Origin: Planctomycetia bacterium
GTDB taxonomy: Bacteria > Planctomycetota > Phycisphaerae > FEN-1346
Reading direction: 5' to 3'
NCBI GenBank assembly: GCA_003170085.1
Contig: PMZT01000036.1
Location: forward strand, 1 to 46,186
Length of the DNA stretch: 46,186 nt
Shown here: one piece after another, positions 9,598 to 28,276 of the stretch
Layout: each line of letters begins with the position of its first letter
Position numbering within the stretch: position 1 is the first letter of the stretch
Translations under genes and position numbers: made by a program
The notes under the pieces: model-generated
What the model saw: the letters and a program-made list of their open reading frames with translations, nothing else
Databases searched by the model: none
Told to the model about the DNA's origin: nothing

Positions 9598-9652
9598 GGC
9601 GATACTTGCGGGCGGCGCCGTGGTTCACTCTTATAATAGTAGGAGCCGGCTC

Positions 9653-10960
9653 ATGACACGACTTACCCGTCGCACGTTCCTGAAGGCCGCGGCCTTTGGC
9701 GCCGCAGCGCCTTACATCGTTTCCGGCACCGTCCTCGGAGCCGGCGAGCGCCCGGCCCCGTCGAACCGCATTACCATCGGCAACATCGGCGTCGGCGGCC
9801 GGGGCAACAGCCACATCGGCAGCCTGCTGGAAGAGAAGGACGCCCAGATTCTGGCGGTGTGCGACGTCGAGAAGTCGCATCGCGAGGGCACCAAGGGCCG
9901 CGTCGAGCAGCGCTACGGCCGCGACCAGCCCGGCGGCTACGCCGGGTGCGCATCGTTCAACGATTTCCGCGAGGTCCTGGCGCGGCCCGACATCGACGGC
10001 GTCGTCATCGGCGCCCCGGACCACTGGCACGCCCTGATGTCGGTCATGGCCGCCGAGGCCGGCAAGGACATCTATTGCGAAAAGCCGATGTGTGCCGTGA
10101 TCGGCGACGGCCGCGCGGCCGCCAATGCCGTCAAGCGCTACGGCCGCGTCTTCCAGACGGGCAGCCAGGAACGCTCGGGCGGGGGGCGGTTCGCCTGCGA
10201 ACTCGTGCGCAACGGCTACCTCGGCAAGATTCACACGATCCGGACGTTCCTGCCGATGGAGCCGCACTGCCTGGCGCCGCAGGGCGACGCCTCGCCGCAG
10301 CCGGTGCCCGAGGGCTTCGACTACGACCTCTGGCTGGGGCCGACGCCGTACGAGCCGTACACGGCCAAGCGCTGCCACTTCAACTTCCGCTGGATCACCG
10401 ACTATTCCGACGGCGAACTCACCGACCGCGGGGCGCACGTGAACGACATCGCCCTGTGGGGCGCGGGGCCGCTCCTGGTGGGGCCGGTGGACATCGAGGC
10501 CACGAACGGCAAGTTCCGCCAAGACACGCTGTGGGACGTCCCGATCCAGTTCCACCTTGAGTACACGTATGCCAATGGCATGAAGATCATCTGCGAATCC
10601 GACGGCCAGCGCGGCATCAAGTTCGAGGGCGACAAGGGCTGGGTCTTCGTCGCCATTCACGGCGGCATGCTCACGGCCGAGCCGGCGTCGCTCCTCAAGA
10701 CGGTCCTCGCGCCCGGCGACATCACGCTGCCGCGCACCCGCGGCCACATGCGCAACTGGCTCGACTGCATCAAGACGCGCGAGCTTTGCGTGGCCCCGGC
10801 CGAGGACGGGCACCGCACGGCGTCGTTCTGCCACCTGGGCCTGATGGCGCTCTGGGCCGGACGCAAGCTCAAGTGGGACCTCGAGAAAGAACAGTTCATC
10901 GGCGACCGCGACGCCAACGCGTACGTCACGCGGCCGATGCGGGCGCCGTGGCACCTGTAA
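9653..10960 (+). CDS. Gfo/Idh/MocA family oxidoreductase with Tat signal (paralog 1)
   Basis: Tat motif TRRTFLK; Rossmann GNIGVGGRGN; YCEKPM motif. Confidence 0.92.
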   Translation: MTRLTRRTFLKAAAFGAAAPYIVSGTVLGAGERPAPSNRITIGNIGVGGRGNSHIGSLLEEKDAQILAVCDVEKSHREGTKGRVEQRYGRDQPGGYAGCASFNDFREVLARPDIDGVVIGAPDHWHALMSVMAAEAGKDIYCEKPMCAVIGDGRAAANAVKRYGRVFQTGSQERSGGGRFACELVRNGYLGKIHTIRTFLPMEPHCLAPQGDASPQPVPEGFDYDLWLGPTPYEPYTAKRCHFNFRWITDYSDGELTDRGAHVNDIALWGAGPLLVGPVDIEATNGKFRQDTLWDVPIQFHLEYTYANGMKIICESDGQRGIKFEGDKGWVFVAIHGGMLTAEPASLLKTVLAPGDITLPRTRGHMRNWLDCIKTRELCVAPAEDGHRTASFCHLGLMALWAGRKLKWDLEKEQFIGDRDANAYVTRPMRAPWHL

Positions 10961-10979: not shown

Positions 10980-12320
10980 ATGGTCAAGCCGCTTAGCATC
11001 ACCCGTCGAGACCTGCTGAGGGGCGCTATTGCCGCCGCCGCGGCGCCTTACGTCGTCTCGGCCACCGTCCTGGGCGCCGGCGACCGCCCTGCCCCGTCGA
11101 ACCGGATCTGCGTGGGCAACATCGGCGTCGGCGGCCGGGGCAACAGTCACATCGGCAGCCTGCTGGAAGAGAAGGACGCCCAGATCCTGTCGGTGTGCGA
11201 CGTCGACAAGACGCATCGCGACAAGACCACGGACCGCGTCGAGCAGCGCTACGGCCGCGACCGGGCCGGCGGCTACGCCGGCTGTAAGTCTTACGCCGAT
11301 TTCCGCGAGGTCCTCGCGCGGCCCGACATCGACGCCATCGTCATCGGCACGCCCGACCACTGGCACGCCCTCATCTCGGTCATGGCAGCCAAGGCCGGCA
11401 AGGACATCTATTGCGAGAAGCCGATGAACGCGGTGATCGCCGACGGCCGCGCTGCCGCCGATGCCGTCAAGCGCTACGGCCGCGTGTTTCAGACGGGCAG
11501 CCAGGAACGCTCGGGCGGCGCGCGGTTCGCCTGCGAACTGGTGCGCAACGGCTACCTCGGCAAGATTCACACCATCCGCACGTTCCTGCCCACCGGCGAC
11601 AAGCACTCCGGCGCCACCGGGCCGATGCCCGTGCCCGAAGGGTTCGACTACGACACGTGGCTGGGCCCGGCCCCGTGGGAGCCGTATCACCCGGCCCGCT
11701 GCCACGGCAACTTCCGGTGGGTCATGGATTACTCCGACGGCGAGCTGACGGACCGCGGGGCGCACGTGAACGACATCGCCCTGTGGGGCGCCGGGCCGCT
11801 CCTGGTGGGTCCGGTCGAGATCGAGGGCCGCGGCACGTTCATCCGCGACCCGCTCTGGAACGTTCCGTACGCGTATCACATTGAGTTCACGTATGCCAAT
11901 GGACTTAAGTTCATCGTCGATAGCAGCGATGCGCCCGGCGGAGTCATCTGTAGCATTACCGGGGCACACCGCGGCATTCTGTTTGAGGGGACCGAGGGGA
12001 AGGTCTTCGTGGCCATCCACGGCGCGGCGCTCGCGGCCGACCCGCCGTCGCTCCTCCGCACGGTCCTGGCGCCCGGCGACATCACCTTGCCGCGCACCCG
12101 CGGGCACATGCGCAACTGGCTCGACTGCATCAAGACGCGCGAGGCCCCCGTGGCCCCGGCCGAGGACGGGCACCGCACGGCGTCGTTCTGCCACCTCACC
12201 CTGATCGCGTGCCTGCTCGGCCGCAAGTTGCGGTGGGACCTCGAAAAGGAGCAGTTCATCGGCGACCGCGACGCCAACGCGTTCGTCACGCGGCCGATGC
12301 GGCCACCGTGGCACTTGTAA
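10980..12320 (+). CDS. Gfo/Idh/MocA family oxidoreductase with Tat-like signal (paralog 2)
   Basis: TRRDLLR; GNIGVGGRGN; YCEKPM; very similar to the preceding CDS. Confidence 0.92.
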   Translation: MVKPLSITRRDLLRGAIAAAAAPYVVSATVLGAGDRPAPSNRICVGNIGVGGRGNSHIGSLLEEKDAQILSVCDVDKTHRDKTTDRVEQRYGRDRAGGYAGCKSYADFREVLARPDIDAIVIGTPDHWHALISVMAAKAGKDIYCEKPMNAVIADGRAAADAVKRYGRVFQTGSQERSGGARFACELVRNGYLGKIHTIRTFLPTGDKHSGATGPMPVPEGFDYDTWLGPAPWEPYHPARCHGNFRWVMDYSDGELTDRGAHVNDIALWGAGPLLVGPVEIEGRGTFIRDPLWNVPYAYHIEFTYANGLKFIVDSSDAPGGVICSITGAHRGILFEGTEGKVFVAIHGAALAADPPSLLRTVLAPGDITLPRTRGHMRNWLDCIKTREAPVAPAEDGHRTASFCHLTLIACLLGRKLRWDLEKEQFIGDRDANAFVTRPMRPPWHL

Positions 12321-12595: not shown

Positions 12596-15589
12596 ATGCG
12601 TTGCTGGACAAAACTGCTCATGGGATTGACGGTAGTGGGCCTGTGCCTGGCGCTGGCGGCCCCCACGGGCCTCGCCGCCGCCAAGGCCAAGAAGGATGCC
12701 TCGCCGGCCGCAACGATCCCCGAGGGCCCCAAGCCCGCCAGCCTCGACGAGGCCTTCACGATCCTCGCCAAGTATGAGTTCGGCCAGAGCCGCGAGGCGC
12801 TCACGATGATCTCCGACGCCCTGCGCGATACGATCAAGGACCCGGCGGCCCGTAAGAAGCTCGTTGACCGCCTGACGGTCCTCCTGCCGTCCGGCGCCAC
12901 GCTCGATGCCAAGCGGTTCGTTTGCCGCCAGCTCAGCATCGTGGGCATGGCCGAGTCGGTGCCGCCGCTGGCGGCGCTGCTGCTCGACAAGGACCTCTCC
13001 GACTATGCCCGGTACGCGGTTGAGCGCATCCCGGTGCCCGAGGCCGAGAAGGCGCTGCTCGACGCGCTGCCCAAGGCCCAGGGCAAGGTGAAGATCGGCA
13101 TCGTCAACTCGCTGGGCGAGCGGCGCGACGCCTCGGCCCTGGCCGCCGTAACCGCCTGCCTGGGCGACGCCGATGCGCAGATCGCCTCCTCGGCGGCGAG
13201 CGCGCTCGGAAAGATCGACGGCTCCGACGCCGCCAAGGCCCTCATGGCCGCCCGCGCCACCGCCAAGCCCGAGGTGCGGCCGGTCATCAACGACGCCCTG
13301 CTCATGGTCGCCGATAAACTCCGCACCGAGAAGAAGGGCGACGAGGCCCTCGCGATTTACCAGGAGATGTACAAGCCCGCCGAGGCCAAGCACGTCCGCA
13401 TCGCGGCCCTGCGCGGCCTGATCGCGTCGGGCGGCGACAAGGCCCTCCAGCTCGTGACCGAAATTCTCGCCGGCGGCGATGCCGACATGCAGGCCGCCGC
13501 CCTGCGGTTCCTCCGCGAGACGTCCGGCCCGGATTCGGCCAAGACCGTCGCGGCCCTGTTGCCCAAGTCGCCGGTCTCGGCCCAGCCGCTGCTGCTGGAC
13601 GACCTGGCGGCGCGCGGCGATGCGACCACACTGCCGGCCGTCATGGCGATGATCAAGTCCGGCGATGCCGCTGTCCGCCTCTCGGCCATCAAGGCCGCCG
13701 GCAAGCTCGGCGATGCCTCGACGCTGACCGTCCTGGTGGAGTACGCCACGGGCGCCGCCGGCCCCGATCAGGACGCCGGCCGTGCGGCCCTCGATCGCCT
13801 GCCCGGCGCCGACGTGAACCCGGCCCTGCTGGGTCTGGCCGAGAAGGGCGATGCCAAGGTTCGCGCCGAGGTCCTCCGCACGCTGGGCGCCCGCCGCGTG
13901 GCAACGGCCGTGCCCGTCGTACTGAAGGCCGCCCAGGATGCCGACGCCGGCGTCCGAGCCGCGGCCCTGTTGTCGCTCGACACGCTGGCCGATGAGAAGT
14001 CGGCCCCGGCCATCGTGCAGATCATCGTGAAGGCAAAGGATCCGAAGGACATCGCGGCGGCCGAGAAGGCCCTCGCGTCGCTGTGCAGCCGCGCTACGAA
14101 CAAGGACGCCTGCGTCGACCCGATTCTGGCGGCGCTGGCGGGTGCCGAGAAGGACGCCAAGGCCGCGCTCATCCGCGCCCTCGGCCGTGCCGGCGGCGCC
14201 AAGGCGCTGGCGGCCGTCAAGGGCCTTGCGAAGGATGCCGTTCCGGAGATTCAGGAAGCCGCGATCCGTTCTCTGACCGACTGGCCGGACGTCAGCGCCG
14301 CCCCCGAGCTCCTGGCGATTGCCAAGGGCGAGGGCAAGACGGCTATCCTGGCGATGCGCGGCTACGTCCGCCTGGCGGCCGGCACCGACGTTGCCGCCGG
14401 CGACAAGATGAAGATGTATAAGGAAGCATGGGACACCGCGAAGCGGCCCGACGAGAAGCGGCTGGTCCTGGGCGGCCTGGGCGACCTGAAGTCAACGGCG
14501 GCCCTCGAAATGCTCACGACGTGCCTCGATGACCCGGCCCTGGGCGCCGAGGCCTGCGCCGCAACCGTGAAGGTGGCCAAGGCCCTCAACAACGGCCCGA
14601 AGCCGCAGATTCAGGCCGCCATGACCAAGGTCCTTGCCCTGACGAAAGACAACAACCTCAAGAAGGAGGCCGATGACATGCTGAAGGCAGCCGGCGGCGC
14701 TCCGGCGCCCAAGTCGAAGGTGAACAAGGCCCCGCGCATCGCGGTGTACAAGGCCCCGGCGGACGCCCCGAAGGTCGATCTTTCACCCGCCGACGCGATC
14801 GGCTGGCACCTGGCGGCGCAGGCGTACACGTTCCGCGCGGTGAGCTTCTCCGAGACGATCGACATCCTCAAGAAGATCGGCATGAAGTATGTCGAAATCT
14901 ATGGTGGCCAGAAGTTGACGCCCACCTCGGACGTCAAGGTCGGCGTGGGCATGACCGACGAGCAGATCGCCGAGATGAAGAAGATCGCGGCCGACGGCGG
15001 CGTCCGGATCGTCAACTTCGGCGTGACCGGAATCGGCGGCGATGAGGCGAGCGCCCGCAAGACCTTCGAGTTCGGCAAGAAAGTGGGCCTCGAGGTGATC
15101 GTTACGGAAGAGCACGAGGACCGGTTCCCGATGCTCGCCAAGCTGGCCGACGAGTACAAGATCAACCTCTCGCTGCACAATCACCCGAAGCCGTCGTACT
15201 ACTGGGACGTCGATCACGTGCTGAAGGCCTCCGAGGGCCAGACCCGCATCGGTTCGTGCGCCGATACCGGCCACTGGATGCGTTCGGGCTTCGTGCCGCT
15301 CGATTGCCTGAAGAAGCTCAAGGGCCACATCATCAGCCTGCACTTCAAGGACCTCGACAAGATGGGGCCGGTCGAGAAGGGCCAGCCCGGCCCGAAAGAC
15401 GTGCCGTGGGGCACCGGCGCGGGCAACGCCAAGGGCATGCTGACCGAACTGTACGCGCAGGGCTTCAAGGGCGTGTTCTCGATCGAGTACGAGACTGGCG
15501 GCGGCCAGGAGTTGATCGACAACGTGACGAAGTGCGCCGAGTTCTTCGCGGCCACCGCAGCCGAGCTTGGCAAGGGCGGCAAGAAGTAA
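12596..15589 (+). CDS. Secreted HEAT-repeat / sugar phosphate isomerase-epimerase (AP_endonuc_2 TIM barrel) fusion
   Basis: Signal peptide; ~650 aa of alpha-helical HEAT-like repeats; C-terminal WHLAAQAYTF..LSLHNHP..CADTGHW..ISLHFKD..SIEYE. Confidence 0.88.
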   Translation: MRCWTKLLMGLTVVGLCLALAAPTGLAAAKAKKDASPAATIPEGPKPASLDEAFTILAKYEFGQSREALTMISDALRDTIKDPAARKKLVDRLTVLLPSGATLDAKRFVCRQLSIVGMAESVPPLAALLLDKDLSDYARYAVERIPVPEAEKALLDALPKAQGKVKIGIVNSLGERRDASALAAVTACLGDADAQIASSAASALGKIDGSDAAKALMAARATAKPEVRPVINDALLMVADKLRTEKKGDEALAIYQEMYKPAEAKHVRIAALRGLIASGGDKALQLVTEILAGGDADMQAAALRFLRETSGPDSAKTVAALLPKSPVSAQPLLLDDLAARGDATTLPAVMAMIKSGDAAVRLSAIKAAGKLGDASTLTVLVEYATGAAGPDQDAGRAALDRLPGADVNPALLGLAEKGDAKVRAEVLRTLGARRVATAVPVVLKAAQDADAGVRAAALLSLDTLADEKSAPAIVQIIVKAKDPKDIAAAEKALASLCSRATNKDACVDPILAALAGAEKDAKAALIRALGRAGGAKALAAVKGLAKDAVPEIQEAAIRSLTDWPDVSAAPELLAIAKGEGKTAILAMRGYVRLAAGTDVAAGDKMKMYKEAWDTAKRPDEKRLVLGGLGDLKSTAALEMLTTCLDDPALGAEACAATVKVAKALNNGPKPQIQAAMTKVLALTKDNNLKKEADDMLKAAGGAPAPKSKVNKAPRIAVYKAPADAPKVDLSPADAIGWHLAAQAYTFRAVSFSETIDILKKIGMKYVEIYGGQKLTPTSDVKVGVGMTDEQIAEMKKIAADGGVRIVNFGVTGIGGDEASARKTFEFGKKVGLEVIVTEEHEDRFPMLAKLADEYKINLSLHNHPKPSYYWDVDHVLKASEGQTRIGSCADTGHWMRSGFVPLDCLKKLKGHIISLHFKDLDKMGPVEKGQPGPKDVPWGTGAGNAKGMLTELYAQGFKGVFSIEYETGGGQELIDNVTKCAEFFAATAAELGKGGKK

Positions 15590-15880: not shown

Positions 15881-16077
15881 GAAAGTCGGCGGGTTTTCGC
15901 CTCGCCGTGCGAGATACCTGTGGGGTCCAGAAGGTCAACCGGCCGGTGGCCTCCCGAAGCAACTCGCCTCTGGCAATTGCAAAAAAGGTGTGTACAATCA
16001 CGGGACTTTCACGTATAAAAAGTGCCCCCGCGCGGCGGGGCCACGGAACCCTGGACGAAGAGGAGGTTGTACCTAAC

Positions 16078-17490
16078 ATGGCTCACACGGAAACCAATAG
16101 TGGCGGTCTCAGCAGGCGGGACTTCTTGAAGGTAACGGGCGCCGTCGGAGCGGGGATGGTCCTGGCCCCCGTTATCCTCGGCGAAGAGGCCAAGAACGCC
16201 TCGAAGACCGTTAACGTCGGCTTCATCGGCGTCGGCACGCAAGGCCGCGTGCTCCTGACGAACGCCCTGAAGATCCCGAACCTTCGCTTCGTCGGCGTCG
16301 CCGACATCTGGCCCTACAACCAGGGCTACGCCGTCCGCACCCTCAAGAAGTACAACCACCCGGCGAACGGCTACATCGAGTACGCCGAGATGCTCGACAA
16401 GGAAAAGGACATCGACGCGGTCATCGTGGCCACGCCCGACTGGAAGCACGCCGAGTGCACCGTCGCCGCCCTCAAGGCCGGCAAGCACGTTTACTGCGAG
16501 AAGGAGATGTCGAACGACATCGCCCTCGCCAAGGAAATGGTCGTCACGTCGCAGCAGACGAAGAAGCTGCTGCAGATCGGCCACCAGCGCCGCTCGAACC
16601 CGCGCTACCAGTTGGCCATCGACTACATGCAGAAGAAGAACTGCTGCGGCATGTTGACGTTCCTGTCGGCCGGCTGGAGCCGCTCGAAGCGTCTGGACGT
16701 GGGTTGGCCGAAGGGTCAGGAGCTCGACGAGGCCGCGCTCAAGAAGTACGGCTACGACACGATGGCCCGCTTCCGCAACTGGCGCTGGTACAAGAAGTTC
16801 TCGGGCGGCCCGATCGCCGACCTGGGCTCGCACCAGATCGACATCTTCAACTGGGCGCTCAAGGCATCGCCCGCGGCCGTCATGGCGGCCGGCGGCTGCG
16901 ATTTCTACGAGGGCATCGAGTGGTACGACAACATCTCGGCCCTGTATGAGTGGGATAACGTGGATCAGGGCGGTAAGAAGCACACGGTGCGCGGCTACTA
17001 CCAGCTCCTGAGCACGTCGAGCCACGGCGGCTACTCCGAGACATTCATCGGCACCGACGGCTCGCTCATCATTTCCGAGAACGCCGGAACGGGCGGCATG
17101 CGCCGCGAGCAGGAGGCCGCCGAGGCCGACTGGGAAAAGGAACTGCCGAAGCCGAGCGGTCCGAACGCCGCCCCTGCCGCCGCCCCCAAGGTCGAAGAGA
17201 AGAAGGCGGAGACGAAGGACGGGGCGAAGAAGGACGCCGACGACGACATCAAGGTCGGCCACTCGGTTCCGGCCCCCGGCCGCTACTTCGGGCCGATCAC
17301 GGTCGCCGGCTTCAACAAGTCGGAGCACCTGCCGCACATCGAGAACTTCATCGCCGCGATTCGCGAAGGCGCCGCGCTCACCTGCCCGGGCGAGGTCGGC
17401 TACGATACGGCCGTCACCGTGCTCAAGGTGAACGATGCCATCGTGGCCGCCAAGCGCCTGGAGTTCAAGCCCGAAGAGTTCAAGGCGTAA
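16078..17490 (+). CDS. Gfo/Idh/MocA family oxidoreductase with Tat signal (paralog 3)
   Basis: SRRDFLKVTGA; VGFIGVGTQGR; YCEKEM; low-complexity insertion. Confidence 0.9.
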   Translation: MAHTETNSGGLSRRDFLKVTGAVGAGMVLAPVILGEEAKNASKTVNVGFIGVGTQGRVLLTNALKIPNLRFVGVADIWPYNQGYAVRTLKKYNHPANGYIEYAEMLDKEKDIDAVIVATPDWKHAECTVAALKAGKHVYCEKEMSNDIALAKEMVVTSQQTKKLLQIGHQRRSNPRYQLAIDYMQKKNCCGMLTFLSAGWSRSKRLDVGWPKGQELDEAALKKYGYDTMARFRNWRWYKKFSGGPIADLGSHQIDIFNWALKASPAAVMAAGGCDFYEGIEWYDNISALYEWDNVDQGGKKHTVRGYYQLLSTSSHGGYSETFIGTDGSLIISENAGTGGMRREQEAAEADWEKELPKPSGPNAAPAAAPKVEEKKAETKDGAKKDADDDIKVGHSVPAPGRYFGPITVAGFNKSEHLPHIENFIAAIREGAALTCPGEVGYDTAVTVLKVNDAIVAAKRLEFKPEEFKA

Positions 17491-17506
17491 CATCGGGGGT
17501 AACACC

Positions 17507-19453
17507 TTGCACACCACAACGACAACCGTCGGCGCGACCCGGGGAATGGCCCTGGTCGCGCTGGCGGCGACCTTGCTGGCGGCAGCCGGAACGTCCGACG
17601 CCGCCCAGAAGTTCCTGGTTCCCGATGGCAACCGCTCGGCCGCCGTCCACCGCATCCCGATGCTGGCGGACCCGGTCCTCAAGGGCGACGACAAGCCCAT
17701 CGGCCCCGAAGACACGCCCGTCCTGCCCTACTCGCCGCGCGCCACCTGTAGCGCCCGGTGCCACGATTACGCGATCGTCGAGGGCGGCTGGCACTTTAGC
17801 GCGCCGGATCCCAAAGTGGCCCCCGGCCGGCCCGGCGAGCCTTACTTCCTGACGGACCTCAAGACGGGCACGCAGATACCCGTCTCGCCGCGCGGCTGGC
17901 CCGGCACGTACAAGCCGTCGGCCGTGGGCCTGACGCCGTGGAAGTTCATGCTGGCCTTCGGCGGGCACACCCCCGGCGGCGGCTACGGCGAGAAGTTCAT
18001 CGGCGACATGCAGGCCGATCCGGCCGCCCGGTGGCAGGTCTCGGGCAAGATCGAGATCGACTGCCAGGGTTGCCACAGCGGCGATCCGATGCAGGACCAG
18101 AGCAACTGGGCCTCCAACCTCGAACGCGAGAACTTTATGTGGGCCGCCACGGCCTCCAGCGCCATCGGCATGGTGCGCGGCAACGCCAAGACGGTGCCCG
18201 AGACCTGGGACCCCATGACGCCGGCTACCGGCGACAACCCCAAGGAGTTCCCCCCGTCGGTCGTCTATGACAAGTGGCGCTTCAACGCGGCCAACCTGAC
18301 CGGCAAGGAACCCGCGAAGAACTGGGAAGTCTTCTTCAACGTCAATTGGAAACCGTCGAACGAACGCTGCTTCTTCTGCCACACGAACCACCCGCTCGGC
18401 AAGGACGCTCCCAAGAAGTTCCAGGAAAACGGCGACGTCCACCTGGCCGCCGGGTTGAACTGCGCCGATTGCCACCGCCACGACCTCGACCACAACATGG
18501 CGCGCGGCTATGAGGGCGAGACGATCGGCGGCACACCGGCCACGCTGACGTGCCGCGGCTGCCACCTGGGCGAGCAGTCGGCCGCCGCCGGCCCCGACAC
18601 GATGGGCGGGCGTCTGGGCGCCCCGGTTCCGGCGCACAAGGGCATCCCCACGGTCCACTTCAAGAAACTCGCGTGCACGACCTGCCACAGCGGGCCGATG
18701 CCCGACAAGACCGTCATGCACGTTCAGACCTCGCGGGCTCACAACCTGGGCGTCAAGGCCAAGGAGCATCGCGACGACGCTCCGCCGTTCATCCAGTGGC
18801 CCGTCTTTATGCGCGATGAGAGCGGCAGGATCGCGCCGAACAAGGTGGCTTGGCCCGCGTTCTGGGGCCGGATGAAGGACGACAAGGTCACGCCGATGGC
18901 CCCGGAGGCCGTTCAGGAAGTCGGCGGCGACGCGCTGGCCACCGACGAACTCCGCAAGTGGAAGCCGCTCTCCGAGGACCAGATCAAGAAGATCCTCACC
19001 GCCCTGGCCGCCAAGAAGGATGCCGGAGAGCCGGTCTTCGTGACCGGCGGCAAGCTGTACCGCCTGGCCGGCGGCGCCCTCACGAGTGCCGAGCACGCCG
19101 CCGCGGCGCCGTATGCGTGGCCGGTGGCCCACGACGTCCGCGCGAAGACGCAATCGCTGGGCGCGGGCGGCTGCACCGATTGTCACAGCACCGATTCGCC
19201 GATCGCCTTTGGCCAGGTTGCGGCCGATTCGATGGCCGAGACCCAGGCGCCGCTGACGAAAGTCATGTACGAGTTCCAGGGGCGTAATCCGCTGGAGCTG
19301 AAGGCGTGGGCCATGTCGTACATGTTCCGTCCCATGTTCAAGGTGGTGGGGTTTGCCACGGCCGCCCTCCTCGCGGCGGTGCTGGCACTCTACCTGTTCT
19401 TGGGCCTGGCCGCATTCCTGCGGTGGGCGAGCAAGAAGGCCCCCCAGGGCTGA
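17507..19453 (+). CDS. Membrane-anchored multiheme cytochrome c
   Basis: Six CXXCH (CQGCH, CFFCH, CADCH, CRGCH, CTTCH, CTDCH) plus one CX3CH (CSARCH); signal peptide; C-terminal TM helix; TTG start with GGGGG SD inferred. Confidence 0.88.
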   Translation: MHTTTTTVGATRGMALVALAATLLAAAGTSDAAQKFLVPDGNRSAAVHRIPMLADPVLKGDDKPIGPEDTPVLPYSPRATCSARCHDYAIVEGGWHFSAPDPKVAPGRPGEPYFLTDLKTGTQIPVSPRGWPGTYKPSAVGLTPWKFMLAFGGHTPGGGYGEKFIGDMQADPAARWQVSGKIEIDCQGCHSGDPMQDQSNWASNLERENFMWAATASSAIGMVRGNAKTVPETWDPMTPATGDNPKEFPPSVVYDKWRFNAANLTGKEPAKNWEVFFNVNWKPSNERCFFCHTNHPLGKDAPKKFQENGDVHLAAGLNCADCHRHDLDHNMARGYEGETIGGTPATLTCRGCHLGEQSAAAGPDTMGGRLGAPVPAHKGIPTVHFKKLACTTCHSGPMPDKTVMHVQTSRAHNLGVKAKEHRDDAPPFIQWPVFMRDESGRIAPNKVAWPAFWGRMKDDKVTPMAPEAVQEVGGDALATDELRKWKPLSEDQIKKILTALAAKKDAGEPVFVTGGKLYRLAGGALTSAEHAAAAPYAWPVAHDVRAKTQSLGAGGCTDCHSTDSPIAFGQVAADSMAETQAPLTKVMYEFQGRNPLELKAWAMSYMFRPMFKVVGFATAALLAAVLALYLFLGLAAFLRWASKKAPQG

Positions 19454-19471
19454 GGCTGACAGGATAAACGA

Positions 19472-20161
19472 ATGACCGGGTTCCAACTCTACGCAGCCGT
19501 TGCCATCGTCGCGGTCCTCGTGGCCATGCCGATTCACTATGTCCTCTTCGCCCGCCGGCAGCCGCATCCCGGCTTGGGCGAGCGCCACGTGAAGCGTTAT
19601 AACGTGTGGGAGCGCCTGGTCCACCTGGCCCTGCTCGCCAGCTTCATCGTGCTGGCCTGGACGGGCTTCTCGGCGTCCATCGGCTGGGGCGGACCCATGC
19701 ATGGATACCTGTTGATGATCCATACCACGTCGGGCGCCGTGTTCGCCGTGACCGTGGGCATCATGTTCCTGACGTGGGCGGCCGATCACGCTTTCACGAA
19801 GTGCGACCTCCAGTGGATCCGCGACGGCGGATGCCTCGCCACCAAGGAGCTTCCGGCGGGCCGCTTCAGCGCCGGCGACAAGATGTACTTCTGGCTGGCC
19901 GGACTCCTGACGCTCGTGGCCCTGCTCTCGATGCTCCTCAGCATGATCCCCGTGCTCGGCACCGGCGGCCAGTTGCTCATGTACAACGTGCACCGCTGGT
20001 CAACGCTGGTGCTCGTGCTGGCGACCCTCTGGCACGCGTACGTGACGCTGGCGAAGCCGGGGGCGCTTACGGCGATCCTGACCGGCCGCGTGAGCGCCGC
20101 ATGGGTCAAGCGCTTCCATCCGCTATGGGGCGCCGGCCATGACGCAACCGGTCGCAAATAA
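19472..20161 (+). CDS. Cytochrome b561 / formate dehydrogenase gamma-like membrane cytochrome b
   Basis: HVKRYNVWERLVHLALLASFIVLAWTGF..GYLLMIHTTSGAVF..NVHRWSTLVLVLATLWHAY; multiple TM helices with His. Confidence 0.83.
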   Translation: MTGFQLYAAVAIVAVLVAMPIHYVLFARRQPHPGLGERHVKRYNVWERLVHLALLASFIVLAWTGFSASIGWGGPMHGYLLMIHTTSGAVFAVTVGIMFLTWAADHAFTKCDLQWIRDGGCLATKELPAGRFSAGDKMYFWLAGLLTLVALLSMLLSMIPVLGTGGQLLMYNVHRWSTLVLVLATLWHAYVTLAKPGALTAILTGRVSAAWVKRFHPLWGAGHDATGRK

Positions 20162-20912
20162 CCCTTCTGGCGCCAACGACTTGATGGACCTTTCCATCGT
20201 CATCCCGGCGTTTCGTGAAGCCGCCAAGATCCGCCACGATGTCGAGGGAGCGGCGGCGTTTCTCGTCAAGTCGGGCCTCAAGGGCGAGATCATCGTCGTG
20301 GACGACGGCAGCCCGGATAACACCCGCGCCGCCGCCCTTGCCGCCGAAATCCCGCCCACCGTCGAGCGCCAGGTCATCCGATACGAGCACAACTGCGGCA
20401 AAGGCTGCGCGGTCCGTACCGGCATGAAGGCGTCGCGCGGCGAGTTCGCGATGTTCGCCGACGTGGGCCTGTGCGTACCGTTCGAGAACGCGCTCCGGGG
20501 CATCGAACTTATCCGTCGCGGCGAATGTGAGATCGCCCACGGGTCGCGCAAGCTGCCCGACAGCGTCATCCTCAAGCCGCAGACGCTTTACCGGCGGCTG
20601 CTCTCGCGCACGTTCCGGTTCGTCGTCCGCCATTTCATGGGCACGCCGCGCGACCTTACGGACACGCAGTGCGGCTTCAAGGTCTACCGGGGCGACGTGG
20701 CGCGGCAGCTTTACGGCGAGTGCTTTTGCGGCGGATTCATGTTTGACATCGAGATCCTGCTGCGCGCCCTGAAGCACGGCTACCGCGTGCGGGAGTTTCC
20801 GGTCGAGTGGCGGTGCGACTGGGACTCGCGGCTGCACCCGGCCCGCGGGGCGGCGCACACCCTCGGGGAACTCTCGGAAATCAAGCGGCGATTGAAGGAA
20901 GACAAGCCGTAA
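20139..20912 (+). CDS. Family 2 glycosyltransferase (dolichyl-phosphate mannose synthase-like)
   Basis: LSIVIPAFREAAKI..EIIVVDDGSPDNT..NCGKGCAVRTGM..DTQCGFKVYRGDVAR. Confidence 0.88.
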   Translation: MTQPVANNPSGANDLMDLSIVIPAFREAAKIRHDVEGAAAFLVKSGLKGEIIVVDDGSPDNTRAAALAAEIPPTVERQVIRYEHNCGKGCAVRTGMKASRGEFAMFADVGLCVPFENALRGIELIRRGECEIAHGSRKLPDSVILKPQTLYRRLLSRTFRFVVRHFMGTPRDLTDTQCGFKVYRGDVARQLYGECFCGGFMFDIEILLRALKHGYRVREFPVEWRCDWDSRLHPARGAAHTLGELSEIKRRLKEDKP

Positions 20913-20971: not shown

Positions 20972-21219
20972 CGCCGTTGACGATTATGCCCTTCCCCGCG
21001 TGGGTCCGTTTGAAATCTCAAATTTGAGATTTCAGATTCGAGAGAGGACCCCCCCCACACGAGCCGCTATTCCTTCAGTCATGTAGGGTGGGTGCTCTGC
21101 ACCCACGCGGTCGCCGTTGACGATTGTGGCCTTCCCCGCGTGGGTCCGTTTGAAATCTCAAATTTGAGATTTCAGATTGGAGAGAGGACCCACCCCACAC
21201 GAGCCGCTAGTCCTTCAGT
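20972..21219. repeat. Two ~108-bp direct repeats, period 140 bp, each containing the palindrome GAAATCTCAAATTTGAGATTTC
   Basis: Copy 1 20972-21079, copy 2 21112-21219; second overlaps the 3' end of the DUF1080 CDS. Confidence 0.9.
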
Positions 21220-22250
21220 TCTTTAATCCAGATATTTCTGAACTTCACCGTGTTGCCGTGGTCCTGGAGGCGGAGCGGGCCGGCCTTGACCTCGATGCCG
21301 CCGTCCTTCGACGCCCCACCCGTCGGCCCCGGAATCTCGAAGTTGTCGTGGATCTTCACCCCGTTCAGGAGCACCGTGATCACGGCGCCCTTTTCCTTCT
21401 CGCCGGCGGCCTTGAACCGCGGGGCGTGGAACGTGATGTCGTACGTCTGCCACACCAGCGGCGGGAACGCCGCCTGCACCCTGGGCGCGGCCTTGGTGTA
21501 GATGCCGCCCACTTCGTTGTTGGCGGTCGGAAGGCCGAACGAGTCGAGAATCTGGACCTCGATGCGGTCCATCTGGTACACGCCGCTGTTGCCGCGGCCC
21601 TGCCCCCGCGCCGTCGGCATATATGGACACATGAATTCCAGGTGGAGCTGGTAATCGCCGAACGCTTTCTTCGTCTTCGTATCGCCCTTGCCTTTGTTGA
21701 TCGTCCCGTCCGGGTTGGCCACCCAGGTCGTGTTCGTCCACTCGTCAATCGACGGCGCCTTGCCCGGCTCGTACGCCAGCAGAATGATCGCGCCGGCCGG
21801 CGGCTTCTCGAGTTCGGTGGGCGACTTCGGCGTCGTGTAGGCAAGCTCGACCTTGGCGCCGTTCACCTCGGCCGAAAACTTCTTGTCGGCGATCTGGCCC
21901 TTCCCGTTGCCGATCAGATCGACCTTGCCGTCGGCCAGCTTGCCGCTCATCTCGATCTTCGGGGCGTTCTCGCCGCCCACATAAAGGTTGACGCGATACC
22001 CGCCGCCGCCCTGCCCGATTACTTCGGCCTTGCCGGCCTGGCCGACGTAGAGGCCCTGGATCCCGTCATCCGCCTCCTCGGCGGGCTTGGGCGCCGGCGG
22101 CTTGGCAGGCCCCTTAGGCGCATCGGCCTTGGCCCCTGCCTTGGGCGCCTCGGCCTTGCCCGGAGCGGCCGTCTCGGCGGCGTACAGCCACGCACCGACG
22201 GCCATCACCACGAGACCCACCACCACCATCGTCACGATTTTGTGCGCCAT
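21207..22250 (-). CDS. DUF1080 (3-keto-disaccharide hydrolase-like) secreted protein
   Basis: RGNSGVYQMDRIEVQILDSF..YDITFHAPRF..VLLNGVKIHDN..PLRLQDHGNTVKFRNIWIKEL; signal-anchor MAHKIVTMVVVGLVVM. Confidence 0.9.
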   Translation of the reverse strand: MAHKIVTMVVVGLVVMAVGAWLYAAETAAPGKAEAPKAGAKADAPKGPAKPPAPKPAEEADDGIQGLYVGQAGKAEVIGQGGGGYRVNLYVGGENAPKIEMSGKLADGKVDLIGNGKGQIADKKFSAEVNGAKVELAYTTPKSPTELEKPPAGAIILLAYEPGKAPSIDEWTNTTWVANPDGTINKGKGDTKTKKAFGDYQLHLEFMCPYMPTARGQGRGNSGVYQMDRIEVQILDSFGLPTANNEVGGIYTKAAPRVQAAFPPLVWQTYDITFHAPRFKAAGEKEKGAVITVLLNGVKIHDNFEIPGPTGGASKDGGIEVKAGPLRLQDHGNTVKFRNIWIKELKD

Positions 22251-22287
22251 GTGCATTCTCCTGGGATTGTCTCTCTCGTTCACACCC

Positions 22288-22343
22288 GACAACTTGTGAC
22301 TTTGCACGGTCGGCGCAGCGGGTACGGAGACCCGCCGCGCAAA
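22288..22343. repeat. Family A-derived element
   Basis: gacaacttgtgactttgcacggt...gcgggtacggagacccgccgcgcaaa shares blocks with 15650-15880. Confidence 0.65.
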
Positions 22344-22385
22344 CCCTGGCAAACTTCGTCGGCGTTTCACGCCCGACGCGCCGGC

Positions 22386-23438
22386 CTACTTCGCCTCGTC
22401 CTTGAGTTCCACGATCCAGATGTTGCGGAACCGCACGGGATGCTGATGGTCCTGCAGCCGGATCGGCCCGGCCTTCACTTCCGGCCGGCTCTTGGCCGAG
22501 CCCGTGGGGGCCTTGATGTCGGTGTTCTCCTGCACCTTCACGCCGTTTTGCACGGTCGTGACCGTCGCATCCTTGATCTTCTTGCCGTCGGCATCGAACC
22601 GCGGCGCGCGGAACGTGAACTCGTACGTCTGCCACGAGCCGGGCGGGAAGCACGCGTTCACCAGCGGGGCCGTCTGCGTGTAGATGGCGCCGCACTGGTG
22701 GGCTTCCGGCTTGATGCCGTAGGAATCGAGGACCTGCATCTCATAGACGTCATGCAGGAAGATGCCGCTGTTGCCGCGGCCCTGGCCCTTGCCGGTGGGC
22801 TCGAACGGGATACGGAATTCGGCGTGCATCTGGAAATCGCCGAACGTCTGCTTCGACTTGATGTCGCCGCCCTTGACCTGGATGCTGCCGTCGTCCATCG
22901 CGACCCACTGGCACGGCTCGCCCTTGAGTTGCGTCCACGCCGCGGTGTCGGACTTTTTGCCTTCCTCGTACGCCAGCAGGACGACCGCGCCGGCCGGCGG
23001 CTTCTGGAGTTCCGTCGGCGACTTCTTCACCGTGAACTTGAGATCGACCTTGCCGGCCTTCGACTCGGCCTTGAGCTGGCCGTTCTCGATCGTGCCGGTC
23101 CACGCATCGTCACCGCCCGAGAACGTCACTTTGCTCGCGTCGCCCTTGCCGGGCAGATCGACCCACGCGAACTTCTCGCCGGCCGCCGGCGCGCGGAGCA
23201 CGATCCGGTACGACGGGTCCTCTCGCACCACGTTGGCCTCGGCGGCAACGTCCTTGCCGCCGGTGTTTAAGGTGCCCACGTAATCGCCCACCATCTTGTC
23301 GGGCGGCGACTCGACCGGGGGCGCCTTGGGCTCCGACGACTTGGCGGCGCCCTTGCTCGCCTTCTCGGCGGCCATCACCGGCATCGCCGCAACCACGCAC
23401 AACGCCAGCCCCACGAGCAGCATCGTCCGGATACTCAT
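22386..23438 (-). CDS. DUF1080 secreted protein
   Basis: RGNSGIFLHDVYEMQVLDSYGIKPEAHQCGAIYTQTAP..PIRLQDHQHPVRFRNIWIVEL; signal peptide. Confidence 0.9.
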   Translation of the reverse strand: MSIRTMLLVGLALCVVAAMPVMAAEKASKGAAKSSEPKAPPVESPPDKMVGDYVGTLNTGGKDVAAEANVVREDPSYRIVLRAPAAGEKFAWVDLPGKGDASKVTFSGGDDAWTGTIENGQLKAESKAGKVDLKFTVKKSPTELQKPPAGAVVLLAYEEGKKSDTAAWTQLKGEPCQWVAMDDGSIQVKGGDIKSKQTFGDFQMHAEFRIPFEPTGKGQGRGNSGIFLHDVYEMQVLDSYGIKPEAHQCGAIYTQTAPLVNACFPPGSWQTYEFTFRAPRFDADGKKIKDATVTTVQNGVKVQENTDIKAPTGSAKSRPEVKAGPIRLQDHQHPVRFRNIWIVELKDEAK

Positions 23439-23477: not shown

Positions 23478-24548
23478 CTACTTGCCGTCCTTCAGTTCCA
23501 CAAGCCAAACGTTCCGGAACCGCACCGGATTGCCATGATCCTGAAGCATCAGCGGCGCGGGCGACACGATCGGGCCGGCGACGCCGGCGGTCGTCACGTG
23601 ATCGATCTTCACGTTCTCATGAATCTTGATGCCGTTATGAATCACCGTGATGGTCGCCGGCGTGACGATCTTGCCGTTCTCGACCTTGGGGGCGTGGAAC
23701 GTGATGTCATACGTCTGCCACCGGTCCGGCGGCAGGCTGGCGATCACCTTGGGCACCGCCACGCTGTAGATGCCGCCGCACTCGTTGTCCTTCGGCGCCA
23801 GGCCGAACGAGTCGAGGACCTGCACCTCGTAGCGGCTCTGGAGATACACGCCGCTGTTGCCGCGCCCCTGCCCCCGCGCCGCCGGCATGTACGGGTTGCG
23901 GAACTCGACGTGCAGTTGCACATCGGTAAACGCCTGCTTGGTCTTGACGTTGCCGCCCTTGACGAGCAGGCTGCCGTCGTCCTGTGGCACCCACGGGCAC
24001 GGCTTGTCGCCGTTCAGGCTGACCCACGCATCCGTCGTGGGCGGCTTGCCTTCCTCAAACGGCAGAAGGACGATCGCACCGGCGGGCGGTTTCTGAAGCT
24101 CGGCCGGCGACTTGCGGACCTCCCACTTCATGTCGAACTTGCCGCTCTTCGATTCGGCGACGAGCGACCGCCCGCCCTCAATCGTGCCCTTCCCTTCGGC
24201 ATCGCCGGCCTTGCTCGCCAGCGGAACCTGCTTGCCTTCGGCCTTGCCGTTGAGCTCGACGCGGACGGCCTTGTCGCCCTCACCCGCCGTGAGGACCGCG
24301 CGGAAACTGCCGCCGCCCTCGCCAATGACCTTGGCCTCGGCCTTCATGCCGGCGTTCTGGCCGGCCGGCGTGTAGGTTCCGTTATACTCGCCCTGGATGC
24401 CATCGTCCGGCTCCTCGCCGGGCTTGGGGGCCGCGGGCTTGGCGGCCTTCTCGGCAGCGGCAGCCGCTACGGCGTGGACGCCCAGGAGGCAGGCGCCGAG
24501 ACCCAGGGTCAACAGGCACATCGCCAGAATCGTTGATGCACGCTTCAT
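23478..24548 (-). CDS. DUF1080 secreted protein
   Basis: RGNSGVYLQSRYEVQVLDSFG..PLMLQDHGNPVRFRNVWLVEL; signal peptide MKRASTILAMCLLTLGLGACLLG. Confidence 0.9.
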   Translation of the reverse strand: MKRASTILAMCLLTLGLGACLLGVHAVAAAAAEKAAKPAAPKPGEEPDDGIQGEYNGTYTPAGQNAGMKAEAKVIGEGGGSFRAVLTAGEGDKAVRVELNGKAEGKQVPLASKAGDAEGKGTIEGGRSLVAESKSGKFDMKWEVRKSPAELQKPPAGAIVLLPFEEGKPPTTDAWVSLNGDKPCPWVPQDDGSLLVKGGNVKTKQAFTDVQLHVEFRNPYMPAARGQGRGNSGVYLQSRYEVQVLDSFGLAPKDNECGGIYSVAVPKVIASLPPDRWQTYDITFHAPKVENGKIVTPATITVIHNGIKIHENVKIDHVTTAGVAGPIVSPAPLMLQDHGNPVRFRNVWLVELKDGK

Positions 24549-24585
24549 CGTTCGCTCCTTGAATCGCAGGCGTTGCGGCCGGGAA

Positions 24586-25542
24586 TCAAGACTCCCATTT
24601 TCCAAATCGGAGGACCTTGCGCCCACTAGAATCTTTCGTGATCAGCATGGCGGAGGTGTCGGGATGGTTCCTGACGTACGCCTCCACCTCGGCGGGCGAC
24701 ATGATAAAGAACGCGGTCGACAGGCAATCGGTGATCGTGGCCGAGGTTGCGGCAGCCCATGAACCCACGTTCGCCGCGGCCGGCCGGCCCGTGCGTGGAT
24801 CGATGATGTGCGGGTTGCCCGGCGGCATGGCCGAGCCGCTCAGCGACCGTTCCTTGAGGAGCACGCTGCCGAGCGTTTGCGACTCGTCCTCCGGGTCCCT
24901 CAGCGACACGCGCCAGCCGTCGCGGCCGGGGGGCGCTCCGAACGCCAGCACGCTCGACGTGCCGCCGTTGACGAGCGCCGCCTTGATGCTCCACTCCTTC
25001 AGCAGCGCGACCATCTGGTCCACCGCGTAGCCCTTGCCCACGCCGCCGAGGTCGATGCTCACGCCGTCGGCCTTCACGCCGACGAGGTGTTCCGACTCGC
25101 GAATGTCCAGGAGGTACATGCCGGTCCGCGCACGGGCGGCCGCCAGTTCCTCCTCGGTGGGCGTGCGGGGCTTCTTGTCGGGATCGCGCCAGCAGGCCAG
25201 CAGCGAGCCGATGGTCACGTCGAAGGCCCCGCCGGTCTCGGCGTTGACCTTGGCGGCCGCCTTGATGCAGTCCATCGTGGCGATGCCCACGCGGACGCCC
25301 TGGCCCGCGTGAAGGGCGTTGATCTGCGAGATGTCGCTCGTGGAACTGTAGCGGTTGAGCTCGTGGTGCAGGTTATCAAGCTCGGCGAACGCGGCGTCGG
25401 CCGCCTGGCGGGCGTACTCGGCATCCTCACCGGCGATGAGAATCTCGAACACCGAGGCCATCGCCACGTGCGAGAAGCGATGGACCGGCGACGAGGGCTT
25501 GCTGTCCGTGGTCACCGAGAAGGCATCGGGTATCCGGCTCAT
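24586..25542 (-). CDS. apbE: FAD:protein FMN transferase (ApbE)
   Basis: VDLGGVGKGYAVD-like SIDLGGVGKGYAVDQ, VNGGTSS, HIIDPRTGRPA, SATITDCLSTAFFIM. Confidence 0.93.
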   Translation of the reverse strand: MSRIPDAFSVTTDSKPSSPVHRFSHVAMASVFEILIAGEDAEYARQAADAAFAELDNLHHELNRYSSTSDISQINALHAGQGVRVGIATMDCIKAAAKVNAETGGAFDVTIGSLLACWRDPDKKPRTPTEEELAAARARTGMYLLDIRESEHLVGVKADGVSIDLGGVGKGYAVDQMVALLKEWSIKAALVNGGTSSVLAFGAPPGRDGWRVSLRDPEDESQTLGSVLLKERSLSGSAMPPGNPHIIDPRTGRPAAANVGSWAAATSATITDCLSTAFFIMSPAEVEAYVRNHPDTSAMLITKDSSGRKVLRFGKWES

Positions 25543-27146
25543 GGTTGCCGCTCCGCCTGCTTGCCGCCGGCGGCCTTCGGTTCCTGCGAGGCCACAAATT
25601 TCTGCCACAGGCCGTCCTGAACGTACACCACCATGAGCACGCTCGGCCTCAGGCCGAACATCCCCGTCCGGAAATACGGGCCGCGCAGCCGCGCGTCGAG
25701 TTCTTCCTGGACCTCCTTGGCGACGATCATAACCGACGCCGGCGGATCGTCCGGGTTCGCGGGCATCTCGTGATACCAGCCGATGTGATCGGGGTCGAAC
25801 TTCCGGAGATACCACGGCAGCGGCCAGTAATTCTCGGGCGTGATGACCTTGATGATCATCTCGCGGCCGTCGGGCGCGACGGCGGCCACACGCTCGACCA
25901 GCCGCGCCATTTCCACGCCATCGGTCGAGGTGGGCGGATAGTTGTACGGGTTCCGCTGGTCGGCGTAGTAGCGGAAATTCAACTGGTACGATTCCCAGCC
26001 CAGGTGGACGGCCAGCGCCGCCAGCACCAGGCACATGGCCCCCCGGCTCCAGCGGCAGGGCATCCACCTCACGAGCGCCACGGCGCCCACGCCCGCCAAG
26101 AGGATCATCCCGTGGAGGAAGCTGAGCATGCACCACGGCGTCTTGTACGGAATCATGGCATACGCGGCCGTCAGGGCGAGCGTGTAGAAACCGAGGAACC
26201 GCACGAGCGGCCGGTGGGCGTCGGGGATGTCATTCTTCCGCAGCGCAGCCACGAAGCCGACGATCGCCAGGCCCACGATAAGCCCCTCTGTCCACGTGAA
26301 CCCGCGGGCCGGGTGGTCGCAGATGAGCATCGCCAGGTAGAAGTACCACGCGTGCGTGTGGATTCCGTTCTCGCCCGCCTTGCCGGCATAGGACGTGTAG
26401 CTCAGGAGCGAATCAAGCGGCCCCCGCCAGTTGGCTCCGAACGAGGAGAAGAGCAGGCACGCCACGATGATCGCGGCGGCAATGCCCAGCACGAGCGGCC
26501 GCCAGCGCAGGCATTCGCGGAAGGCGAGGCCCCGGCCGTCGCGCAGTCGCGCCCAGAGATGCGTGAGCACGAGGCCCGCCACCATCGCGGCCCCGGCCAG
26601 AACCCACGTTTCCTTCGTGGCGTGCATGAGGCCGATCGAGACGCCCGCCGCCACGGCCCACGCCGCCGATTTCGTTTGCGTGTATCGCCAGGCCGACACA
26701 ATGGCCCCCGCCGTGAAAAATACGAGGAGCATCTCCTGGACGTAATAGCGGCTGTAGAAGACCATCGCGGGCGAGAGAGCCGTCAGGACCCCCGCGCAGA
26801 CCGCCGCGGGCATGCCAAGGCCCTTGCGGAGCGGCCAGAGGAGCAGCACGAGCGCCACGCCAAAGATCGCGGGGACGATGCGGTACTGGAACTCGTCGGT
26901 CTCGGCGAAGGTCCTGGCCTGGCCAAGCCAGAGCGACGGCAGGGTCAGGTAATAAAGGCTGGGGCCGTGATGCTCGCCGGGGTCGTAACGGTAGGTGCCG
27001 TCGTCAAACAGTTCGCCGGTCTTGACGGCCTGGTTGGCCTCGTCGGCGTGCATCGGCCGCAAAGCCAACCGTGGCAGACGGAGCGCTAACGCCCCGACTG
27101 CCACGGCCAGGAGACAGATTCCGAAAACCGCCGCATGGCGTTTCAT
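25539..27146 (-). CDS. Membrane glycosyltransferase-39-like protein, TIGR03663/Agl23 family
   Basis: LRPMHADEANQAVKTGELFDDGTYRYDPGEHHGPSLYYLTLPSLWL; many TM helices. Confidence 0.82.
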   Translation of the reverse strand: MKRHAAVFGICLLAVAVGALALRLPRLALRPMHADEANQAVKTGELFDDGTYRYDPGEHHGPSLYYLTLPSLWLGQARTFAETDEFQYRIVPAIFGVALVLLLWPLRKGLGMPAAVCAGVLTALSPAMVFYSRYYVQEMLLVFFTAGAIVSAWRYTQTKSAAWAVAAGVSIGLMHATKETWVLAGAAMVAGLVLTHLWARLRDGRGLAFRECLRWRPLVLGIAAAIIVACLLFSSFGANWRGPLDSLLSYTSYAGKAGENGIHTHAWYFYLAMLICDHPARGFTWTEGLIVGLAIVGFVAALRKNDIPDAHRPLVRFLGFYTLALTAAYAMIPYKTPWCMLSFLHGMILLAGVGAVALVRWMPCRWSRGAMCLVLAALAVHLGWESYQLNFRYYADQRNPYNYPPTSTDGVEMARLVERVAAVAPDGREMIIKVITPENYWPLPWYLRKFDPDHIGWYHEMPANPDDPPASVMIVAKEVQEELDARLRGPYFRTGMFGLRPSVLMVVYVQDGLWQKFVASQEPKAAGGKQAERQP

Positions 27147-27907
27147 TTTTCGGGCGTGCCGTAAGCCTCAACTTCGATGTAATGATTCTGGTCGTTCGAG
27201 GTGTTGCCCTTGCTGTACAGGCGAATGTAGCGGCCCGTGACGCCCTTGGCATCCATCAGACGGCCGCGGAAGTCCTCGATGTACTCCAGATCCTTGCCGA
27301 TGCCGAGACCCGAGGAGTTGTCAAAATCGTTGTTGTACACGGTCTTGACGTTCTCGATGAAGTCCGGATCGTCGGCCACCTGGACGATGACGTCGTGATA
27401 GACGCGGCCTTCGCCATGATAATGCCACACGAGCATGGCATAGATCTTGACCTTCTGCTTAAGGTCGATCTGAACCCACTGCTTCCCAGGTCCAAGTTCG
27501 ACGAAGCTGCCGTCGGTGCCTTCCTTGTCGCCATCGGTGATGAGCTTGAGTTCGCCGATGATCGGCTCGGAATCGCTGGAGGTCACGGGCTTGCCGGCGG
27601 CGAGGTTCGCGGAGCCCTCGGGGGCGAAGAACGGATCGCGGTTCTTGTCGACGTACTTCTCGAGGGTCGGCGACGGCTTGATGTTCTTGGGCGTGCCCTC
27701 GAACATGGCCTTGGGCATCTTGATGGGCAGCGGCACGAGCTTCTCGCCGTTCGGGCCGGTCTTCGCGGCCGGCTGATCCTTGGCCGCCTCGGCCGGCTTG
27801 GCCGCATCCGCGGCCGTCGCCTGAAGGGCCGGTCCCATGACAAAGGCAAGGCCCGCCAGGCCCGCCGCCAGAGCCACCGCCAACGCCAAATACCTTCTCG
27901 TCTTCAT
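27143..27907 (-). CDS. Secreted discoidin (F5/8 type C)-like protein
   Basis: Signal peptide; NLAAGKPVTSSDSEPIIGELKLITDGDKEG..WVQIDLKQKVKIYAMLVWHY..GVTGRYIRLYSKG. Confidence 0.75.
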   Translation of the reverse strand: MKTRRYLALAVALAAGLAGLAFVMGPALQATAADAAKPAEAAKDQPAAKTGPNGEKLVPLPIKMPKAMFEGTPKNIKPSPTLEKYVDKNRDPFFAPEGSANLAAGKPVTSSDSEPIIGELKLITDGDKEGTDGSFVELGPGKQWVQIDLKQKVKIYAMLVWHYHGEGRVYHDVIVQVADDPDFIENVKTVYNNDFDNSSGLGIGKDLEYIEDFRGRLMDAKGVTGRYIRLYSKGNTSNDQNHYIEVEAYGTPEK

Positions 27908-28276
27908 ACGCTCTTCCCCTGCTCCTGTGGACATTGCGTCCGGTTCATCCCCGCGGGATGGTTCCGCCCATCCTCACCTATACAACCGGTTCCGGGGCCT
28001 TGTGTGTCGCTAGAAAGTAGCGTCCGAACCCCCCGGCGTCAAGCCCGAAGACGCCCGCGCTTGCTCTCAGATTCTCCGGGCCTCTGTACTCTTCTCGCGG
28101 TTCAATCAGTGATCACACAGGAAAAATCCGGTCGAGCCGCCTGATTTTGAGGCAGATGCTTGAACTGCGGCAGGTTTTCGGGCAGAATAGCTATTTCGTT
28201 TGGCGAACATGGGCCGGGAAGGCGCGCGGGAGAGGCGCCACGGCCGCTCAACCAGGTCTTGAAAAGGAGAGGCACC

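Follow-up and report, generated by a model that had tools for sequence, protein, structure and literature searches.

A Tat-exported Gfo/Idh/MocA oxidoreductase encoded with a heptaheme cytochrome c and a cytochrome b in Planctomycetota and other phyla: a candidate route for extracytoplasmic sugar electrons

Planctomycetes and related groups encode dozens of Gfo/Idh/MocA oxidoreductases, some of which carry export signals, and how the cofactor of such enzymes is recycled outside the cytoplasm is a standing question. The draft genome examined here (G000; 4.47 Mb, 89% complete) illustrates it well, with 67 Gfo/Idh/MocA (PF01408) matches, several of them in proteins with an export signal. One of these matches lies on contig C143, in a stretch of 46,186 nucleotides (nt) that is called the window in what follows. 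There, an exported Gfo/Idh/MocA enzyme is encoded directly ahead of two cytochromes, and the question raised by this locus is whether the three proteins, hereafter the triad, work together, and if so in what chemistry. The three genes are:

16078..17490, + strand: gfo, an oxidoreductase of the Gfo/Idh/MocA family predicted to be exported by twin-arginine translocation (Tat), 'CEKEM' clade, 470 amino acids (PF10518, PF01408; D76, K142, D248, H252)
17507..19453, + strand: heptaheme cytochrome c with a C-terminal membrane anchor (TTG start inferred; heme motifs)
19472..20161, + strand: four-helix cytochrome b, formate dehydrogenase gamma-like (PF01292; four hydrophobic stretches)

An earlier note, made from the letters of this DNA, had placed the three genes at these coordinates and in one direction, with gaps of 16 nt between gfo and the cytochrome c gene and 18 nt between the two cytochrome genes, and with an inferred TTG start for cytochrome c; all of this holds on the window sequence, an in-frame ATG at 17546 being the alternative to the TTG at 17507. 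This spacing is operon-like. A sigma-70-like site lies upstream of gfo at 15970-15998 (chance expectation, 0.6 such sites), neither of the two intergenic gaps contains a + strand terminator-like match, and one such match is found at 18784, within the cytochrome c gene. The same genome carries a second pair of gfo and heptaheme cytochrome c genes (contig C62, locus L079), adjoined by a convergent ApbE gene, and no cytochrome b was detected there.

The Gfo protein carries an export signal together with cofactor and catalytic residues. The twin arginine of the predicted Tat signal stands at residues 13-14, with PF10518 above its cut-off; PF01408, the N-terminal Rossmann domain, is matched with 63.5 bits (cut-off 24), an alpha/beta domain follows at the C-terminus, and PF22725 and PF02894 are above cut-off too. 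An alignment of 24 Gfo proteins shows no exception at the twin arginine, at the GxGxxG loop, at D76 or at the catalytic residues K142, D248 and H252; over 45 triad copies, the catalytic Lys is found in 43, the Asp in 41 and the His in 45. The motif of the clade is an unusual CEKE, not one of the CEKP/EKP type. The structural model (mean predicted local distance difference test, pLDDT, 81) has scyllo-inositol, levoglucosan and glucuronide-3-dehydrogenases as its top fold matches (E 1.6e-23), with GFOR (1rye) among the structural matches; by sequence, the best solved relative of the clade profile is DgpA, an enzyme that oxidises C-glycosides, and the PDB relatives include GFOR, AAOR and GH109. 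Membership in the BT_2158 glycoside 3-dehydrogenase family (NF058561) was considered and rejected, since the match is confined to the N-terminal half and its 95.6 bits fall short of the cut-off of 750. In a tree, 43 of the 45 cytochrome-adjacent Gfo proteins form one strongly supported set; the two exceptions (L046 and L124) come from a single genome (G055), where a BT2158-like Gfo fills the same slot.

The cytochrome c had been credited with seven heme-binding motifs, and seven are indeed present, with the refinement that six are CXXCH and one, the first, is a CX3CH (CSARCH, residue 81; window 17747-17764). This form, described as atypical in ImcH homologs, occurs only in the window and in two sister genera (G051 and G037; loci L041 and L083), almost all other members of the family having seven CXXCH motifs; it appears to be an in-frame insertion of one codon at a heme-binding site that is tolerated, and since it is limited to three sister genomes we dropped it as a special feature. 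The protein begins with a signal-like helix and ends with a transmembrane helix (about residues 609-642) that most family members share, together with additional invariant His residues. Searches of solved structures gave short local matches only, and a fold search with its AlphaFold model (heme-free, pLDDT 77) gave no significant match, which leaves the fold without an assignment; the protein also falls below the cut-off of every curated multiheme subfamily, the closest being TIGR04314 and TIGR04315. The first of these, MmcA/methano7heme, was rejected at 45.1 bits or less against a cut-off of 250, the similarity being weak and covering about 200 residues in 8 of 29 members; the second, octaheme tetrathionate reductase, was rejected at 29.3 bits at best against 375 in ten members scanned singly, the hemes being seven and not eight. 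In cytochrome b, H84 and H174 are invariant, H188 is shared by the window with just a part of the family, and assignment to the formate dehydrogenase gamma subunit (TIGR01583) was likewise discarded (76.3 against 115.85 bits). The two cytochromes form one protein in some genera: in L065, L074 and L075 the cytochrome b match lies inside the cytochrome c open reading frame, and L052 and L073 have a C-terminus similar to that of these fused forms, with no cytochrome b match in the same search.

Is the arrangement peculiar to this genome? Its recurrence was followed in 298 genomes of the class by protein search, with the Gfo clade located by profile search, and in a wider set consisting of the best 80 of 374 relatives from a scan of GTDB species genomes. 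In these best 80 of 374, the upstream neighbour of cytochrome c belongs to the triad gfo clade in 67 of the 70 loci whose upstream sequence is long enough to tell, one of the remaining loci having a BT2158-like Gfo in that slot, and cytochrome b lies directly downstream in 74 of 76. The loci span Planctomycetota, Verrucomicrobiota, Kiritimatiellota, Omnitrophota, KSB1, Calditrichota, Ignavibacteriae and metagenome-assembled genomes of Bacteroidota. The relatives of the window itself fall in Planctomycetota, Phycisphaerae and Sedimentisphaerales, and the best-matching loci of the class have the order gfo, cytochrome c, cytochrome b in nearly all cases, with gfo products roughly 40-75% identical.

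The genes also travel together when they are not neighbours. In the class, cytochrome c is found in 71 genomes, the Gfo clade in 73 and both in 66, against 17.4 expected; the p-value of this co-occurrence is inflated by the relatedness of the genomes, and the counts are what matters. In eight genomes (G018, G045, G111, G175, G183, G226, G247 and G259) the two genes are unlinked, lying on other contigs or far apart, seven of the eight being drafts in which separate contigs do not exclude physical linkage; the neighbourhoods inspected at L058, L063, L066, L070 and L071 contain no gfo. Joint presence on different contigs or at a distance suggests that the genes are coupled even when they are not linked. 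Three genomes from beyond the class, G325, G345 and G420, carry both genes, adjacent to each other. Because it is found in dozens of genera and several phyla, the arrangement is not due to chance, and the same order in other phyla, together with the unlinked co-occurrence, rules out a mere planctomycete gene neighbourhood. The earlier note had staked its proposal on the triad recurring elsewhere, and it is conserved across phyla, co-occurring even when unlinked. Its central idea, that an exported dehydrogenase with bound nicotinamide is tied to the cytochrome c/b module as a functional unit, is well supported, export and residues typical of enzymes using nicotinamide adenine dinucleotide (NAD) being nearly universal in the clade; judging from sequence and gene content, we predict with high confidence that the triad is one functional unit.

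The genes around the triad give the first hint of its chemistry:

9596-10960 and 10980-12320, + strand: two tandem BT2158-like Gfo/Idh/MocA genes (sugar context)
12596..15589, + strand: fusion of HEAT repeats and a xylose-isomerase-like TIM barrel, 997 amino acids (sugar context)
20139..20912, + strand: family 2 glycosyltransferase (GT2), overlapping the end of the cytochrome b gene
21207-22370, 22386-23438 and 23478-24626, - strand: three tandem PF06439 genes (3-keto-disaccharide hydrolase/DUF1080; sugar context)
24586..26136, - strand: ApbE (FAD:protein FMN transferase family), the domain being the C-terminal ~300 amino acids and the true start probably downstream
25539..27146, - strand: TIGR03663 (PMT-like membrane glycosyltransferase/Agl23), conserved partner
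27143..27934, - strand: discoidin-like protein (F5/8 type C, below cut-off), conserved partner

The last three make up a conserved cassette that accompanies the triad in the window (24586-27934) and in related loci. Across 43 loci viewed more widely, the discoidin-like gene is present in 36, TIGR03663 in 35, ApbE in 33 and the complete set in 32. Frequent companions are GT2, a permease or major facilitator superfamily (MFS) transporter, PF06439 hydrolases, TIM-barrel genes and BT2158-like Gfo genes; in 35 of the 43, as in the window, the triad has genes of the BT2158-like Gfo, PF06439 or TIM-barrel kind around it. TIGR03663 occurs in 76 of the 298 class genomes, accompanied by cytochrome c in 66 and by gfo in 69. 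Positions vary: GT2 follows cytochrome b in the family of the window itself and elsewhere is often at the opposite end of the cluster, and ApbE is encoded between gfo and cytochrome c in G023 and G008, just upstream of gfo in Verrucomicrobiota (L162, L166 and L167) and after cytochrome b in Omnitrophota (L113 and L114). Since PF06439, BT2158-like Gfo and TIM-barrel genes surround the triad, the region is more likely to be concerned with the oxidation of glycosides at C3. The 3-keto-sugar assignment made in the earlier note has its basis in these neighbours, the triad Gfo itself scoring below the NF058561 cut-off.

Other features of the window deserve mention in their own right. Six palindromic repeats of about 30 nt (GCGCGGTGGGTC..GAGACCCACCGCGC) are found at window positions 3277, 15676, 15762, 15826, 20937 and 22313, 73-97% identical to the reference copy and mostly intergenic or near gene starts, possibly a dispersed palindromic element. 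On the - strand, 39552-40859 encodes an S-adenosylmethionine (SAM) hydroxide adenosyltransferase with about 170 extra N-terminal residues, overlapped by a 967-amino-acid open reading frame at 40669-43572 that fuses FAD-oxidase, 4Fe-4S and CCG parts; the starts are uncertain.

What, then, might the triad do? Nicotinamide gives up a hydride, hemes accept single electrons, and known enzymes use flavin as the bridge; because of this mismatch, a flavin-like switch, a point not raised in the earlier note, would be needed for transfer from Gfo to heme. We infer the following route. Gfo would fold in the cytoplasm around its nicotinamide cofactor and be exported by Tat with the cofactor bound; once outside, it would oxidise a hydroxyl of a glycoside, sugar or cyclitol, C3 oxidation being the likeliest as judged from the neighbours; the bound NADH would be re-oxidised in place, probably via a flavin, which ApbE, the recurrent partner, could install and which would pass on the electrons of the hydride one at a time; and these electrons would move down the chain of seven c-hemes in the anchored cytochrome, reach cytochrome b and from there, putatively, enter the quinone pool. 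Described in this way, the triad would be a periplasm-facing sugar or polyol:quinone oxidoreductase, a tentative assignment to which we give slightly less than an even chance. In its favour are the conserved gene order and the co-occurrence of unlinked genes, the single Gfo clade beside the cytochrome, the c-b fusions, the second pair in G000, the invariant twin arginine, the fold matches of Gfo, the recurrence of ApbE and the complex I that G000 carries.

Several observations weigh against such an oxidoreductase. (i) Direct reduction of heme by bound NADH is chemically poor, and the search for a carrier of the proposed flavin switch was negative: no FMN_bind (PF04205) protein was found in G000 and no conserved [DE]xx[ST]GA[ST] acceptor motif, the target of ApbE, is present in any protein family of the cluster. 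(ii) Cytochrome b has just one invariant His pair for heme b. (iii) Neither a heme-copper oxidase nor a bd oxidase was found in G000, which is 89% complete. (iv) In two Omnitrophota copies (L108 and L114) the catalytic Lys has become A or S (EAP or ESM for EKE) and the catalytic Asp is replaced by E or Q, with the Tat signal and gene order kept; the loss of the Lys would mean either an altered chemistry in these copies or a partly structural role. (v) The partners do not always coincide: G059, G126, G144, G168 and G255 have the cytochrome pair and no gfo, and in G185, G221, G249 and G273 a strong gfo match is present and cytochrome c was not detected. The upstream genes of loci with no linked gfo were checked for another dehydrogenase, and in L063, L066 and L071, all from one genus, their translations resemble yajC and tgt.

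Other explanations were weighed. If the Gfo were redox-neutral, re-oxidising its NADH on a keto-sugar or acting as a hydrolase, the cytochrome pair could be an independent quinol/quinone module that sits in one operon with it because the two are needed under the same growth condition. Exported, redox-neutral members with tightly bound NAD(P) are known in this fold family (GFOR, AAOR and GH109), the hydride-to-heme problem would be sidestepped, and cytochrome c/b pairs with no linked gfo do exist; a redox-neutral enzyme, however, has no need of a cytochrome, and the co-occurrence of unlinked gfo and cytochrome genes, added to their small-gap adjacency across phyla, exceeds what shared regulation usually produces, so that we hold this explanation to be unlikely. 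A third option places the whole cluster in the making or modification of an envelope glycan or glycoprotein, with the TIGR03663/PMT, GT2, discoidin-like and ApbE proteins and the triad all oxidising or decorating an envelope sugar, and with Gfo belonging to that assembly and not to catabolism. The co-occurrence of TIGR03663 with gfo (69) and cytochrome c (66) in the 298 genomes, the presence of the discoidin-like, PMT and ApbE genes together in 32 of 43 loci, and the retention of the triad in genomes of 2.4-3 Mb that are otherwise poor in Gfo genes (e.g. G145) are all in its favour, but 35 of the 43 loci set the triad among genes of the type that break down 3-keto-glycosides, often with a permease or MFS transporter, and we judge it improbable.

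Electrons could also run the other way, the cytochrome c/b module oxidising quinol and the exported Gfo reducing a periplasmic keto-sugar or similar compound as a terminal sink. No MtrB-type conduit was found in G000 and, given this absence and that of the heme-copper and bd oxidases, such a sink may be needed; the neighbouring genes can make keto-sugars, and modules of the CbcL type have been assigned both directions (PMC6295460). Reversal would nevertheless leave the mismatch between hydride and single electrons in place, oxidases missing from an incomplete genome are weak evidence, and a steady supply of keto-sugar acceptor would itself require an oxidation step; we consider it quite improbable. 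The sugar or polyol:quinone oxidoreductase is the reading that we carry forward.

The conservation of the triad suggests an undescribed route by which sugar electrons from outside the cytoplasm enter the respiratory chain, and there is a real chance that the triad represents a new class of respiratory dehydrogenase. The most specific version, a periplasmic dehydrogenase with captive NAD that dispenses with a soluble NAD pool and feeds quinone, in several phyla, through an ApbE-installed flavin and the heptaheme c/b pair, is possible, though we lean against it. Membrane-bound periplasmic oxidation of sugars at C3 beside DUF1080 proteins is already known, as are c/b quinone modules; what would be new is the pairing of such modules with a nicotinamide-type Gfo, since a literature search did not find this family paired with multiheme cytochromes, which, with open-access papers as its scope, is weak evidence of novelty. 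If the proposal is true, it would represent a new point at which electrons from sugars enter respiration among degraders of polysaccharides that are widespread and for the most part uncultured, and a conserved cytochrome partner makes the recycling of cofactor in exported Gfo enzymes directly testable.

How does the triad compare with known systems? CbcL and CbcBA of Geobacter sulfurreducens are inner-membrane quinone oxidoreductases combining a multiheme cytochrome c with a HydC/FdnI-like cytochrome b (PMC6295460, PMC6148476). The triad is similar to them in architecture, with its membrane-anchored seven-heme cytochrome c, its PF01292 partner and its fused forms, but they serve respiration of extracellular metals and electrodes. 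To our knowledge, neither has a dehydrogenase partner, and no Geobacter protein is among the best 80 of 374 relatives. The lactose 3-dehydrogenase LacABC of Caulobacter is a membrane-bound system for the periplasmic oxidation of glycosides at C3, encoded near a DUF1080 3-ketoglycoside hydrolase (PMC9007349). The triad of the window, whose neighbours include DUF1080 genes, may share this C3 chemistry, but its enzyme is a nicotinamide-type Gfo associated with a heptaheme c/b pair. LacABC, in contrast, is a dehydrogenase of the FAD type and has a subunit resembling cytochrome c. Exported Gfo/Idh/MocA enzymes with a tightly bound nicotinamide are known in GFOR from Zymomonas and AAOR from Caulobacter, but in these a second sugar serves to regenerate the cofactor, and we know of no cytochrome partner for either. 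The MmcA-type cytochrome of methanogens (TIGR04314) likewise has seven hemes, with different partners. Finally, the BT2158-type enzymes (NF058561), similar to the two genes upstream in the window, have the Gfo/Idh/MocA fold in common with the triad Gfo, which differs from them in having CEKE in place of CEKP and in being tied to cytochromes.

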